A stretch of 64,000 nt of DNA from Thermus igniterrae ATCC 700962 (GTDB lineage: Bacteria > Deinococcota > Deinococci > Deinococcales > Thermaceae), in the NCBI RefSeq assembly GCF_000376265.1, contig NZ_AQWU01000064.1, positions 103 through 64,102 of the forward strand. Reading direction: 5' to 3'. The stretch's first letter is position 1. Each line of letters opens with the position of its first letter. Positions 3,447-49,346 of this stretch are shown here, piece by piece. Under the pieces are notes generated by a model. The model was not told the DNA's origin and searched no databases. It saw nothing but the letters and a program-made list of their open reading frames with translations. The translations under genes were made by a program, and so were the position numbers.

Positions 3447-5359
3447 GCCGTCCTCCTCAGGCTCCAGACTACCCCGAGGAGGTGCAGGCCGTAGGCCAGG
3501 AGGAGGAGGGAGGGCCCCCGGTCCTGGAGGAGGTTCAGGAGGCCGTAGGCGGCCAGGAGGAGAAGGGCCAGGCCAACCCCCCCGGCGAAGCCCAGGCTCC
3601 CCGGCACCAGGAGCCGCACCCCCAGGGCCCAGGCGGGGGGGATGGCCCCCTTGCGCCGGGGCAGGAGGAAGGTCAGGAGGTGGTAGAGGAGGAGAAGGAG
3701 AAGCCCCAGGAAGACCCAGGGCTTGGCCCCGTCCGGGAGGGGAGTGGGTAGGTCCAGGAAGGTGCGCAAGGGGTCCTCCAGGAAGTGCCCGAGCTCCACC
3801 TGGAGGAGGGCCAGGTAGAGGGTGCGCTGGCTCGGTCCTGGCTCCCGCGCCCCCCAGGGGTCTTGGCCCAGGCCGAGGGTGCTTCGGATGGGCCCCTCGA
3901 GGGGTGCCTTCCCGTAGGCCTCCTTCAGGGAGGCCTCATCCCCCCGTAGGGCCAGGGCAAAGGGCCAGGAGGCCTCCTGGAGGAGGACCTTGGCCTCCTT
4001 GGGGGCCTGGGGCAGGAGGGCGTAGCCCAGGAGGGCCCTGGTCCCCGGGGTGGGGGGGAGGGTGCGGAGCCAGTCCAGGGCCGCCTGGGTGCGCAGGCTA
4101 CCCCGGTCCAAAGGGGGAGCGAGGAGGCGGGAGCGCACCTGGGCATCCAGCCCATAGAGGAGGAATCCCGACCCCAGGGCCAGGAGGAGCAAAAGGGCCA
4201 GGAGGCGCTCCCCCAGGCTGGCGTAGGCCAGGTGGAGGTGCCTGAGGCGCAGGAGAGGATGGCGCCAGAACCCCCCCAGATACCCCCCGAGGGCCCGCAG
4301 GTCCCGAAGCTGGGCAGGCAGGTAGAAGGCGAAGAGGTAGAGGAAGAGGCCCAGGTAGGCCAGGCCCAGGGTCCAGAGGACGGGGGGGAGGAAGGAGAGG
4401 TCGGGGGGGAGCCAGGTGCGGAGCACCTTCTCCGCCTCCCGGAAGCGGAGGGCCCGAGCGGGGTGGCCCTGGGCCTCGAGGAACTCGGCGGTTTCCCGGA
4501 AAAAGACCAGAGAGTCTGGGAAAAGCGGGGTGTAGCGCAGGAGGGCTTCGGCCAGCAGGAAGGCCTGTTCCGGGTCCTGGGTGCGCAGGGCCCGGGAGAC
4601 CTCGGCCATGCGGCGCACCCCGGTTAGGCCGAAGAAGAGCTCCGGCCGGTGGTGCCGGGCCAGGAGGTCCTGGCCGTAGGCCTCCAGGTCCTCTAGGGTC
4701 AAGGAGGCGGGGTCCTGGGTCCAGTAGGCGAAGTAGGGCCAGGGCTTGGGGGGAGTGAGGGCCTCGAGGAGGGGCCTGAGGGCCTCCAGATCTTTTTCGC
4801 TCCCCTCAAAGGGCACCAGGGGAAAGGGGATGGAAAGCACCCGTTCCCCCTCCAGAAGGGCCTCCGGGCCGGGCCTGAGGGCCAGCACGCGGGCTGGGGC
4901 GAAGTGGAAGCGTACCCCCGGGGCCTTTAGGCTGGCCTCCACCACCAGAAGCCCCTGGGCCAGGTAAACCTTCTCCCCCTGGACCAGGGGGCCCAGCCAG
5001 GCCCCTGGGGGCAGGGGGAGGAGACCCCAGGGGAGCCTTACCCCCTCGGGGGTGAGCTCAGGGGCGGCGGCGGGCAGAACGCTAACCCGCCCCTCCAGGG
5101 GACCCCCGGGCAGGGAGAGCTGGACGCGGTACTCCCCGGGGGCCTTGGGGACCAGCTCCAGGCGGAAGGCTCCCCCCTGCACGGCCACCTCCTGGGACTG
5201 GACCCCTTCGGGCCCCTCCACCCGCAGGGGAAAGCGCCCTTGGGGAAGGTCCTTGCCTTGGAGGAGGAGGGGCTCGCCCACCTGGATCCGTTCTGGAAGG
5301 ATGAGGGTTTGGCCCAGGGCCACGAGGCCCAGAAAGGCCAGCGCCGGGAGGACGCGCAT
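3443..5359 (-). CDS. Large exported membrane protein of unknown function
   Basis: I do not recognise a named family. The 638-aa product starts with a cleavable-looking signal peptide (MRVLPALAFLGLVALGQ). It continues with an Ig-like beta-rich stretch (about residues 20-95) resembling the fibronectin/Ig modules of exported bacterial proteins. A long soluble region follows, then about five hydrophobic segments: two near the middle (LWTLGLAYLGLFLYLFAF and [16 protein letters not shown]) and three near the C-terminus. A helical repeat-like stretch lies between the two groups. It is the first gene of a minus cluster with the aldolase and lipoprotein genes and starts only 17 bases from divergent sdaAB. 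The context suggests a cell-envelope role, but that is inference. Confidence 0.6.
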   Translation of the reverse strand: MRVLPALAFLGLVALGQTLILPERIQVGEPLLLQGKDLPQGRFPLRVEGPEGVQSQEVAVQGGAFRLELVPKAPGEYRVQLSLPGGPLEGRVSVLPAAAPELTPEGVRLPWGLLPLPPGAWLGPLVQGEKVYLAQGLLVVEASLKAPGVRFHFAPARVLALRPGPEALLEGERVLSIPFPLVPFEGSEKDLEALRPLLEALTPPKPWPYFAYWTQDPASLTLEDLEAYGQDLLARHHRPELFFGLTGVRRMAEVSRALRTQDPEQAFLLAEALLRYTPLFPDSLVFFRETAEFLEAQGHPARALRFREAEKVLRTWLPPDLSFLPPVLWTLGLAYLGLFLYLFAFYLPAQLRDLRALGGYLGGFWRHPLLRLRHLHLAYASLGERLLALLLLLALGSGFLLYGLDAQVRSRLLAPPLDRGSLRTQAALDWLRTLPPTPGTRALLGYALLPQAPKEAKVLLQEASWPFALALRGDEASLKEAYGKAPLEGPIRSTLGLGQDPWGAREPGPSQRTLYLALLQVELGHFLEDPLRTFLDLPTPLPDGAKPWVFLGLLLLLLYHLLTFLLPRRKGAIPPAWALGVRLLVPGSLGFAGGVGLALLLLAAYGLLNLLQDRGPSLLLLAYGLHLLGVVWSLRRTA

Positions 5360-45558: not shown

Positions 45559-45975
45559 TTACAGGGTGAGGATCCTCTCTTGGACGCGGCGGAACCCTTC
45601 CCAATCCTCCTCCTTCTGGTGGTCGTGGCCCAGGAGGTGCCAAAGGCCGTGGGCGGCCAGCACCAGCACCTCCTCCTGAAGGTCCACCCCCCGCGCTTCC
45701 GCCTGTTTCCTGGCGGTGTCCAGGCTGATCCAGATGTCCCCCAGGTGGGGGGGGATGAAGGGGTCCCCGGGCTCGTAGTGGGGGAAGGAGAGGACGTCCG
45801 TGGCCTCATCCTCTCCCCACCATTCCCGCTTCAGGGCGCGCATGCGGCGGTCTCCTGTGAGGATCACCGTCACCCCCTTGTCCCCCACCCCCAGCTCCGC
45901 CATAAGGGCCCCCAGGGCCCGGCGTAGCCGGGGCACCAGACCCCTGGGGGGGCGCTTGTTAACCGCGATCGCCAC
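45559..45975 (-). CDS. ybeY: Endoribonuclease/16S rRNA maturation factor YbeY
   Basis: 138-aa zinc protein for 16S rRNA 3' end processing and ribosome quality control. The zinc motif is LAAHGLWHLLGHDHQKEED (H-x3-H-x5-H) and DEATDVLSFPHYEPGD is typical. GTG 45975 ([12 protein letters not shown]) gives the usual family start and overlaps phoH by 17 bases. ATG 45993 is also in frame. phoH and ybeY are often neighbours. Confidence 0.9.
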   Translation of the reverse strand: MAIAVNKRPPRGLVPRLRRALGALMAELGVGDKGVTVILTGDRRMRALKREWWGEDEATDVLSFPHYEPGDPFIPPHLGDIWISLDTARKQAEARGVDLQEEVLVLAAHGLWHLLGHDHQKEEDWEGFRRVQERILTL

Positions 45976-48004
45976 CGCGCTCGGCTTCCTCATAGGCCTT
46001 GATGATGCGGGCCACCAGGGGATGGCGCACCACATCGGACTCCTTGAAGTAGATGAAGGCGATCCCCTCAATCCCCTTGAGGATGCGGGTGGCCTCAATG
46101 AGGCCTGATTTCTGGTGCTTGGGCAGGTCAATCTGGGTCACGTCCCCGGTGATGACCATCTTGGAGGAGAAGCCCATGCGGGTGAGGAACATCTTCATCT
46201 GCTCCGGGGTGGTGTTCTGGGCCTCGTCCAGGATGATGAAGGCATCGTTGAGGGTGTTGTGGGTGAGGATGAAGTCCTCTGTCACGTAGAGGCCATCGGG
46301 GCTAGCCACCGTGATGCACACCGCTTCCGCTTCCCCGGTGGGCTCAACGGCCTCCACGAAACGCATGGGATGTATTCCCCCGGCTTGGGCGTAGATCGCC
46401 GCCTTCCGTGCCAAGCGGAAGGGGGAAAGGCCTGGGGGCAGGCGGATGTCCAGGACGTGGCTTTCGGCCGGGTGGAGCGCAGTCTGTCCCCGGGCCACGC
46501 CTGGGTGCAGGCGGTGTTGCGGCCGCACCCGGTGGTGCACCACGCCGCCCAGGGAACGGACCAGGAAGGCCACGTCCTGGGCTAGGCGGGGGGAGGAGGT
46601 GGAGAACTGGACCCGCGCCCTCCGCCCCGGCTGGACGTGAACGCTGCCGTCCGCGTCCAGAAGCCCTTGGAGCACGGCCAACCGCACCTCCCATGCGTTC
46701 CAGAGGTAGGCTTCCGGCACGAAGCGCTCCCTGGAGCGTGTTCCCCAGAGGCCTAAGGCCCGGAGGGCGGTACTTACCGGATTGCGGTTTTCCCCTCCCT
46801 TCAGGGTCAAGGTGGGGTCCGCGCCCCCCTTGGGGACCACCTTCACCCCCTGAAGCCGGGCGGCGAGGGCTTCTTTCAGCTCGGGGTCGCCGGTGCAGAG
46901 GGTCGGCGTGGTGCCATCCGTAAGGCACCCATCCCCCAGGAGGAGTCCCAAAGCGTAGGGGTCCAAGGGGACGGGGCGCCGCGGGAACTCCACGGGGGCC
47001 TGGAGCAGGGGGATTTCGTAGCGGTGCTGGTGGAGGTTATCCCGCATCTCCTCGGTGGTGACCAGGCGAGGAGGGCGCTTTCGCCTCCGGTCCCAGGGGG
47101 TGAGGACGGCCCAAAGGTGGTCGGCCGTGGCCCTCGTCTCCACGCCATCGCTAAAGCGGACCCGGTAGATGGGCTTGACCCCTTGGGGGTGGACGGCCAC
47201 CACCATCACCGGTACGCCATAGGCGCCCACCACCCAGTCCCCCGGCTTAAGCCTCCCCATGGGGCGGAAGCCTTCGGGGGTGAGCACCGGCGTGTCCACG
47301 GGCTGGGCCCTGCCCCGCATGAAGGCCAAAGGCGCCACCTCAATGATTCCCGACTGCAGGTACTGCTCAAAGCGCTCGGCGTCAATCATGTCAAAGAGGG
47401 CATCGTAGAGGGGGCGCAGGTAGGGGTCCACCTTGGCCTGGATGTCCCCCGGCAAAAAGCCCAGCTTTTCTCCAGCCTCCACCGCCGGCCGCGTGAGGAC
47501 GATGCGCTTCACCCGGCGGGCCCGCAGGTGGCTCACGGCCATGGCCACCGCCAGGTAGGTCTTGCCCGTGCCCGCCGGTCCCACCCCGAAGGTGATGTCG
47601 TGGGTGGCGATGGCCTCCACGTAGCGCCGCTGCCCCGGGGTCTTGGGCCGCAGGCGCCCGGGCAGGGCCAGCTCCGTCTCCGGGGTGGTGGCCTGGTAGA
47701 GCCCTTCCCCCTGGAGGGCCAGGCCCACCGCCTGTTCCAGGGTGGGCTCGTCCAGCTCCGCCCCCTGCCGCAGGAGGGCCAGGAGGTCCCGCACCACCCT
47801 TTCCGCCACCCCCACGGCCTCGGGGTCTCCGGAGAGCTCCACCTGGTCCCCCCGCACCACCAGCTTGAGGCGCTCGGGGAAGGCCTCCCGCAAGAGGGCG
47901 CGGAGCTTTTTTAGGTTTTTGTCCGCCTGGCCCAAAAAGGCCAGGGTCTCCTCGGGCTTCAGGGGGATTACCAGCCTCTGGGCTTCTTCAGGATTTCGTG
48001 CCAT
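45959..48004 (-). CDS. phoH: PhoH-like ATPase interrupted by an intein
   Basis: 681-aa precursor. The host protein (PhoH/YbeZ, 330 aa after splicing) is a predicted ATPase/RNA helicase that works with YbeY. Residues 1-232 hold the N-terminal KH-like region and Walker A ([13 protein letters not shown]). Residues 584-681 continue [18 protein letters not shown], with Walker B. Between MRGR and TLND lies a 351-residue intein that keeps the frame throughout. The break sits in the normally unbroken stretch before Walker B, so an unspliced protein should be inactive. The gene overlaps a small membrane protein gene upstream (37 bases) and ybeY downstream (17). Confidence 0.95.
46256..47308 (-). mobile_element. 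Class 3 intein with LAGLIDADG endonuclease domain
   Basis: 351 codons in frame within phoH. Residue 1 is Ala ([14 protein letters not shown]), not Cys or Ser. Block B reads [15 protein letters not shown], with Thr61, His64 and Trp66 (position B:12). Block F holds Cys331 ([13 protein letters not shown]). Block G is FILTHN with Thr349 and the terminal Asn351, and the +1 host residue is Thr. Trp, Cys and Thr at these sites are the known class 3 signature, in which the block F Cys makes the first attack. Between the splicing blocks are [10 protein letters not shown] and [10 protein letters not shown], the two LAGLIDADG motifs, so it may still home. Confidence 0.93.
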
Positions 48005-48372
48005 ATCACCCCTTTCAGGAGGCTTTCCCGGTCCGTAGTGATAAGCCTTTTCCTGGGTTTTTTCTGTGCAGTTTCCTCAGGGGCCGCCTCCCGGAAGCGC
48101 ACCTCCAGGGGGGTGCGCTCAGGGCTTGGGGCCCTTTCCAGGCTCTCTCCTTCCCGCTGGGGTTCCCGGGAAGGTGGGGGAGGGACTGCGGGCCTAGGTC
48201 TGGGCTTGGGCTTGGCCTTGGGTTTGGGGCGGGGAAGGGGCTCGGGGGCGGGAAGCTCCTCGGGGAAGCCCGGGGGGGTGGGTGGCGCCCCCCGGCGGCC
48301 TAGTCCCTGCAGGGCGGGTAGGATGACGAAGAAGAGGAGGAAGAGGAGGCCTATGAGGTCGTCCAGGCTCAT
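47968..48372 (-). CDS. Single-span proline-rich membrane protein, unknown
   Basis: 134 aa. The N-terminus [20 protein letters not shown] is one membrane helix. Residues 30-75 are a proline, lysine and arginine tract ([15 protein letters not shown]), and the C-terminus is a charged soluble segment ending [14 protein letters not shown]. No family is recognised. It overlaps floA by 4 bases and phoH by 37, which is tight packing for an unrelated gene. The shape suggests a membrane tether with a cytoplasmic tail. Confidence 0.65.
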
Positions 48373-49346
48373 TCCTCACCCTCGGGCTTGGCGGCCCGGC
48401 TGATGGACTCCCGCATGTCGGTGTCCGCCTCAATGTTCTTCAGGCGGTAGTAGTCCATGACCCCCAGGTTCCCCTCCCGCAGGGCCTCGGCCAGGGCCAG
48501 GGGCACCTGGGCCTGGGCCTCCACCAGCTTGGCCCGCATGGCCTCCACCAGGGCCCGGTTCTCCTGCTCCGCGGCCACGGCCATGGCCCGCCGCTCCTCG
48601 GCCTTGGCCTGGGCGATCTTCTTGTCGGCCTCCGCCTGGTCTATTTGCAGCTGGGCGCCGATGTTCTTGCCCACGTCCACGTCGGCGATGTCCACGGAGA
48701 GGATCTCAAAGGCCGTGCCGGCGTCCAGGCCCTTTTCCAGCACGGTCTTGGAGATGCGGTCAGGGTTTTCCAGGACCTCCTTGTGGGAGTTAGCCGAGCC
48801 GATGGTGGTCACGATGCCCTCTCCTACCCGGGCGATGATGGTCTCCTCCCCGGCCCCGCCCACCAGCCGGTCAATGTTGGCCCGCACCGTGACCCGGGCG
48901 GTGGCCAGAAGCTGGATGCCGTCCTTGGCCACCGCGGCCACCATGGGGGTCTGGATCACCTTGGGGTTCACCGAGACCCGCACCGCCTCCAGCACGTCCC
49001 GGCCCGCCAGGTCAATGGCCGCGGCGCGGTCAAAGGTGAGCTTGATGCCCGCCTTGTCCGCGGCGATCAGGGCGTCCACCACCCGGTCCACGTTGCCCCC
49101 CGCCAGGTAGTGGGCCTCGAGGCGGTCCAGCCGCACGTCCAGCCCCGCCTTGGTGGCCTTGATCAGGGGGTAGATGATCTTGGCTGGGGGCACGCGCCTG
49201 AGGCGCATGGCCACCAGGGTGAGGAGGGGTACCCTGACCCCCGCGGCCCAGGCGGAAATCCAAAGCCCCACCGGGATGAAGCTGAAGAAGAGGAAGACGA
49301 AGATGAGCACCAAAAGGGCCAAAAAGAGCACGCCGAGTCCTTCCAT
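48369..49346 (-). CDS. floA: Flotillin-like protein FloA
   Basis: 325-aa membrane scaffold of functional membrane microdomains. It starts with a hydrophobic hairpin ([20 protein letters not shown]) followed by the band 7/PHB-like domain (about residues 60-230; [36 protein letters not shown]). An Ala/Glu-rich coiled coil follows ([19 protein letters not shown]). Length and order match Bacillus YqfA/FloA. It lies next to nfeD, its usual partner. Confidence 0.92.

Follow-up and report, generated by a model that had tools for sequence, protein, structure and literature searches.

The phoH locus and its in-frame insertion

We have analysed the gene of the ATPase PhoH in a window of 64,000 nucleotides, i.e., the whole stretch of DNA under study. 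The genes at the locus are in the order NfeD, FloA, a gene of no family, PhoH, YbeY, diacylglycerol kinase, another gene of no family, and GreA. From this gene order, with YbeY adjoining, we therefore regard phoH as the YbeY-linked PhoH. The true start of ybeY is probably further in than that of its mechanical open reading frame, because the Pfam match begins only at residue 85. The features of the locus are collected in Table 1.

Table 1 Positions of phoH, its insertion and the neighbouring genes in the window
Feature	Position	Strand	Basis
phoH precursor ORF including the intein, 681 aa	45959..48004	-	PF02562, E 1.3e-93
N-extein of PhoH, 232 codons, C-terminal MRGR	47309..48004	-	sequence
Walker A GPAGTGKT of PhoH (presumed)	47558..47581	-	sequence
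Probable class 3 intein, 351 codons (phoH codons 233-583), stop-free	46256..47308	-	sequence, family alignment, AlphaFold2
Ala1, non-nucleophilic first residue	47306..47308	-	sequence
Block B His64	47117..47119	-	family alignment (112/112)
Trp66 (B:12 of WCT)	47111..47113	-	family alignment (112/112)
First LAGLIDADG motif LGLLLGDG, D126 at 46931-46933	46928..46951	-	alignment including PI-SceI profile
Second LAGLIDADG motif LQGLLDADG, D220 at 46649-46651	46646..46672	-	alignment including PI-SceI profile; Pfam
Cys331 (F:4 of WCT), predicted initiating nucleophile	46316..46318	-	family alignment (112/112)
Thr349 (G:5 of WCT)-His350-Asn351 (terminal Asn)	46256..46264	-	Thr and His 112/112; Asn set by search pattern
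C-extein of PhoH, 98 codons and stop	45959..46255	-	sequence, 3b85 alignment
+1 Thr of C-extein	46253..46255	-	sequence
Walker B IILDEAQ of PhoH (presumed)	46217..46237	-	sequence
ybeY, downstream neighbour, mechanical ORF	45559..46131	-	PF02130, E 1.2e-28
floA, upstream neighbour	48369..49346	-	PF12127, E 1.7e-165

The insertion splits PhoH between MRGR and TLND, six residues before IILDEAQ. We take the latter to be Walker B of PhoH, and GPAGTGKT to be its Walker A. When the PhoH chain 3b85 is aligned, its residues 5–119 fall on precursor residues 118–232 and its residues 120–208 on 584–672, with the insert exactly between them. The sequence and this alignment confirm the first-pass annotation, which had proposed a 351-codon in-frame insertion at this point, just ahead of Walker B. 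The residues that it had named, i.e., Ala1, Trp66, Cys331, Thr349, the terminal HN, and the +1 Thr, are all found in the translation, and the two LAGLIDADG motifs that it had called intact each keep their Asp.

It had also proposed to look for empty sites in Thermus phoH. Among the 27 genomes of the same genus, 22 have the uninterrupted MRGR^TLNDAF, intein-free at the exact bond, and four carry the insert (G000, which is the genome of the window, G005, G011, and G017). In the remaining genome, G020 (65% complete, 620 contigs), the frame is broken around the site, and we have counted it neither way. A PhoH domain conserved in close relatives, which had been named as the finding that would speak against an intein, is thus not what these 22 genomes show.

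Class and predicted fold of the insert

In the Pfam search of the insert, PF14528 (E 3.6e-10) covers the second LAGLIDADG motif only, and in the NCBIfam search, models of intein-bearing helicases and gyrases are matched in part, with scores under their cut-offs. The search of the PDB with the single sequence returns class 3 DnaB inteins and gp41-1. When the profile of the family is used instead, the PI-SceI endonuclease is added, and both LAGLIDADG motifs align to those of PI-SceI. The blocks of the insert are therefore matched in known inteins; a lack of such matches was the other finding that had been expected to speak against the proposal.

An AlphaFold2 model, with the window intein and 57 relatives as input, has a pLDDT of 89.2 and a pTM of 0.89. 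The top Foldseek matches of this model are VMA inteins with endonucleases. In VIA-align, where 1000 chains were compared, PI-SceI (1vde_B) comes first with a Z of 26.7 (3.3 Å over 326 residues), and the class 3 DnaB intein 6bs8_C reaches a Z of 20.5 (1.5 Å over 123 residues, 32% identity). From these structural matches, the insert is predicted to consist of a HINT splicing domain into which a LAGLIDADG endonuclease is inserted.

The insert shows the WCT triplet, a non-nucleophilic residue 1, the Cys of block F, the His of block B, the C-terminal HN, and the +1 Thr, and the predicted structure has the HINT fold, as is expected of a class 3 intein. The two LAGLIDADG motifs with acidic residues that are expected of a homing endonuclease are present as well (D126 and D220). 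Overall, we estimate a probability of about 0.88 for a full-length class 3 intein that houses a LAGLIDADG homing endonuclease, splices and homes, and on whose splicing PhoH depends. The triplet, the PDB and profile matches, and the predicted fold thus support the assignment to class 3 made from the first reading of the DNA, and its further claim that active PhoH would depend on splicing holds as far as sequence and predicted structure can test it.

A family of inteins at the same bond of PhoH

We have collected further members with a DNA pattern, which demands Asn and Thr across the junction and then the C-extein of PhoH. The pattern was found in at least 120 genome stretches (genome_contigs) and in one record of viral_contigs. 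With the four carriers of the same genus and three others of the window's order, 120 of these stretches and the viral contig make 128 loci, 112 of which hold a complete intein. Among the matches listed, the complete inteins comprise 100 from Actinomycetota, two from Chloroflexota, one each from Acidobacteriota and Myxococcota, one from the viral contig, and seven from the window's order; that is, all but four of the 104 complete inteins from the listed genome stretches are from Actinomycetota.

Trp B:12, Cys F:4, Thr G:5, the His of block B, and the penultimate His are kept in all of the 112 complete inteins. The terminal Asn, the +1 Thr, and partly the first residue are imposed by the search pattern, and their invariance is no test. 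The first residue, set in part by the search, is Ala in 103 and Ser in nine of the complete inteins, and the position three before the His of block B is Cys in 73, Ser in 29, and Thr in ten. A LAGLIDADG Asp is changed in 16 of the 112, to a non-acidic residue or a gap in 13 and to Glu alone in three, and none of these 16 has lost a splice residue. Such changes without loss of splice residues are the pattern of a splicing element with a dispensable endonuclease. MRGR stands on the N side in 112 of the 114 loci that are not cut by an edge, while the bond on the C side is fixed by the pattern; the window intein, which splits 3b85 at 119/120, sits at the bond of this family.

In the window's phylum, the pattern occurs in seven of 111 genomes, the window's own included. 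Besides the four of 27 in the genus, these are G050 and G051, in other genera of the family, and G095, in another family. Other orders of the phylum seem unsampled, because all of the 111 genomes are of the same order or nearer. The proportions are 7/149 for Actinomycetota, 1/350 for Chloroflexota, and 1/247 for Acidobacteriota, each of which includes one index genome picked as a carrier. All these prevalences are lower bounds, because the pattern demands Asn followed by Thr and a fairly strict C-extein.

Some loci of the collection deserve separate mention. L076 and L136 hold the C-terminus of an intein and the C-extein, with an in-frame stop upstream of the expected N-extein, which points either to a broken gene or to a frameshift in the sequence record. 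L154 (IMGVR_UViG_3300029915_000731, pattern at 4662-4705 on the minus strand) is a PhoH-site class 3 intein from the viral collection. In the intein tree, it is joined through long branches to a Pyrinomonadaceae bacterium; it may come from a virus that has the intein, or the contig may be bacterial and mislabelled.

The insert could also be explained as a lineage-specific PhoH domain that is retained in the mature protein. It does form a single open frame with its host, but it is absent at the exact bond in the 22 relatives, its distribution is scattered, both its sequence and its predicted fold match inteins, and a domain retained here would separate Walker A from Walker B. We have rejected the retained domain because of the empty sites in relatives, and its chance is negligible. 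Splicing as class 1 or class 2, with the +1 Thr alone or with the Ser1 seen in relatives, could be argued from the nine family members that begin with Ser. However, all of the 112, the Ser1 members included, have the WCT residues, and the window copy begins with Ala. We have set these classes aside on account of the triplet, and consider them extremely improbable here.

Signs of mobility among close relatives

In a quick intein tree, the four inteins of the same genus form one supported clade. This tree has far and long-branched outgroups, and the clade falls outside the rest, with direction and root undecided. In the extein tree, on the other hand, the AU test rejects both a single clade of the four carriers (p 1.2e-57) and the grouping of G000 with G017 (p 8.6e-5). 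G011 and G017 lie inside starred groups together with empty-site genomes, and the placement of G000 and G005 is weakly supported; three of the five label changes are forced by the starred branches alone.

We have then compared inteins and exteins pair by pair. Between G000 and G017, the inteins are 95.2% identical at the nucleotide level with a dS of 0.08, while the exteins are 86.0% identical with a dS of 0.64. Between G050 (L162) and G051 (L163), which belong to different genera, the inteins are 98.0% identical (dS 0.05) and the exteins 75.6% (dS 1.04). The bootstrap 95% interval of the difference in synonymous divergence between extein and intein is 0.275–0.424 for the former pair and 0.440–0.595 for the latter, and zero is excluded in both. 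This points to recent homing between species in the two pairs, and for G050 and G051 across genera, as judged from the sequences. Among the six pairs of same-genus carriers, G000/G017 is the exception, and the low intein dS is absent in the other five: four show no difference between intein and extein, and the inteins of G011/G005 have diverged slightly more than the exteins. The lack of signal in these five pairs fits an older gain, or inheritance with losses. Overall, at sequence level two recent transfers are well supported, and older ones are indistinguishable from inheritance with loss.

A co-conversion tract was sought in the flanks of G000/G017 and G050/G051, and none was clear. In G000/G017, flank identity exceeds the local background for no more than ~90 nt from the junction, and in G050/G051 it declines slowly across ~270 nt. 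Other pairs, too, show conservation of the bases adjoining the site. The whole loci including the intein are 86.8% identical for G000/G017 (L004/L005) and 84.3% for L162/L163; these values are low, and no long tract has therefore accompanied the intein. This fits homing without proving it.

The Arg codon before the intein (window 47309-47311) is AGG in all four carriers of the genus, versus one of the 22 empty sites (Fisher p 0.0003). Co-conversion of a short stretch may have left this shared AGG, or it may reflect shared ancestry.

As to recent donors, we have considered and rejected two sources. Of 473 phage records, the best one listed has 41.8% identity and lies in another gene, and no donor was found among them. 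Actinomycetota are rejected as well: among the matches listed, 105 complete inteins come from outside the window's phylum, and the nearest of them shares 59.5% identity with the window intein.

The copy in the window

Since its split from G017, the window intein has gained 28 polarised changes, compared with 13 in its sister (p 0.028 by a binomial test); a further 10 are unpolarised. In the endonuclease part, 15 nonsynonymous changes fall on the window copy and four on the branch of G017. The window intein also lacks three and two codons that are present in the other three copies of the genus, though both Asp are kept. Given the excess of changes and the missing codons, the endonuclease of this copy may be weak or dead, and the window intein may stand at the start of endonuclease decay, although the test is weak.

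The same missing codons, and the higher number of nonsynonymous changes than in the sister, would also suit a remnant that no longer splices or only cleaves, with PhoH lost or made as two pieces. We find this very unlikely, since the splice residues are intact, the missing codons belong to the region bounded by block B and the second endonuclease motif, and the two halves of the extein are open and conserved. A further possibility is that the class 3 intein splices without homing, and that its distribution comes from a carrier ancestor with many losses or from ordinary recombination. The five same-genus pairs without lower intein dS, the single supported clade of the four inteins, and the lack of a clear co-conversion tract would agree with such a history. 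Inheritance, however, fails to explain an intein dS that is ~8-fold (G000/G017) and ~20-fold (G050/G051) below that of the surrounding phoH, and the low identity of the whole loci speaks against the transfer of a long tract. Such an origin is thus quite unlikely, and we favour a class 3 intein that splices and homes.

Proposed mechanism and its meaning

Following the class 3 splicing chemistry set out in PMC6195587 and PMC7664689, Cys331, aided by His64 and Thr349, would attack the bond between Arg and Ala1, and the N-extein would then be transferred to the +1 Thr. Asn351, beside His350, would cyclise and so release the intein, and the two halves of PhoH would be ligated. The PhoH precursor should be inactive until it is spliced, because Walker A and Walker B are on opposite sides of the intein. 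The endonuclease, with D126 and D220, would cut intein-free phoH near the codons of MRGR/T, and repair of the cut gene would copy the intein into the empty site. Homing driven by the endonuclease would explain the near-identical inteins in divergent phoH genes.

A wider proposal is that this thermophile PhoH intein is mobile at present and thermostable, i.e., that it cuts empty sites near 60–75 °C, has recently crossed between genera with little flanking DNA, and gates PhoH by temperature- or redox-sensitive splicing. We regard this proposal as tentative and, taken as a whole, doubtful. Conditional splicing has been reported for a mycobacterial DnaB intein (PMC6195587). If the intein is indeed an active mobile element with conditional splicing, the output of PhoH would be gated by a parasite.

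With this finding, the PhoH inteins of class 3, a known but uncommon chemical type, reach into a thermophilic genus. The carriers and empty sites in close species, together with the near-identical inteins across genera, are natural material for testing class 3 homing, and protein chemistry would gain a useful source in a full-length class 3 intein that is thermostable.

Comparison with known inteins

The genome of the window has two further intein-containing genes, at G000:C65:19156-19812 (L002) and G000:C30:11080-11397 (L003). By likeness, the former is presumably a DnaB helicase and the latter a ribonucleotide reductase. Read by eye, their inserts start with Cys and end with HN, and look like class 1 from the sequence.

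PI-SceI, the yeast VMA1 intein, shares the overall fold of intein and LAGLIDADG endonuclease with the window intein, but it is hosted by VMA1 and is only ~20% identical. It follows class 1 chemistry. The class 3 DnaB mini-inteins of mycobacteria (6bs8, 6rix, 6riy) have the Cys of block F and the THN end, just as the window intein has. They differ in their host, DnaB, and in their size, as the chains of 6rix and 6riy have 145–146 residues and the PhoH intein has 351. According to PMC6195587, 6bs8 is without a homing endonuclease and its block B reads DxxH, whereas the window intein has the endonuclease and TxxH.

Class 3-like inteins of phages, which are found in terminases and helicases (e.g., in Mycobacterium phage Phrappuccino), run at full length from Ala1 to THN like that of the window. 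They occupy other host genes and sites, and the identity of the best listed match, given above, extends over 351 residues. In the phage GX15bay (L170, MK557849.1), a gene annotated as PhoH has a full-length intein that ends in THN before a Thr and is 37.6% identical to the window intein, but it lies away from the MRGR/TLN site and its flanks are unlike the Walker B region of PhoH.

The inteins closest in kind are those of mycobacterial PhoH, which have the host protein and the class 3 triplet in common with the window intein. PMC6195587 shows class 3 inteins in the PhoH of M. fortuitum and M. xenopi, and PMC7360933 states that M. smegmatis has a PhoH intein. The first-pass annotation had doubted whether a class 3 intein at this site of PhoH was described; class 3 inteins of PhoH are in print for mycobacteria, and we find the bond occupied in many Actinomycetota. 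Among the papers covered by our literature search, no paper on the PhoH intein of the window was found, and it may be listed in intein surveys or in InBase. Mycobacterial loci such as L035, L039, L049, and L113 have the intein at the MRGR/TLN bond too, and among the matches listed, the eight inteins closest to that of the window include the mycobacterial L078, L107, L035, and L040. These PhoH inteins, which were compared as genome loci, belong to another phylum and are at most ~59% identical to the window intein among the matches listed. From the published cases and from the mycobacterial loci at the same bond, the chemistry, the host gene, and the site are thus already known. The new part is the mobility signal among the relatives of the window.
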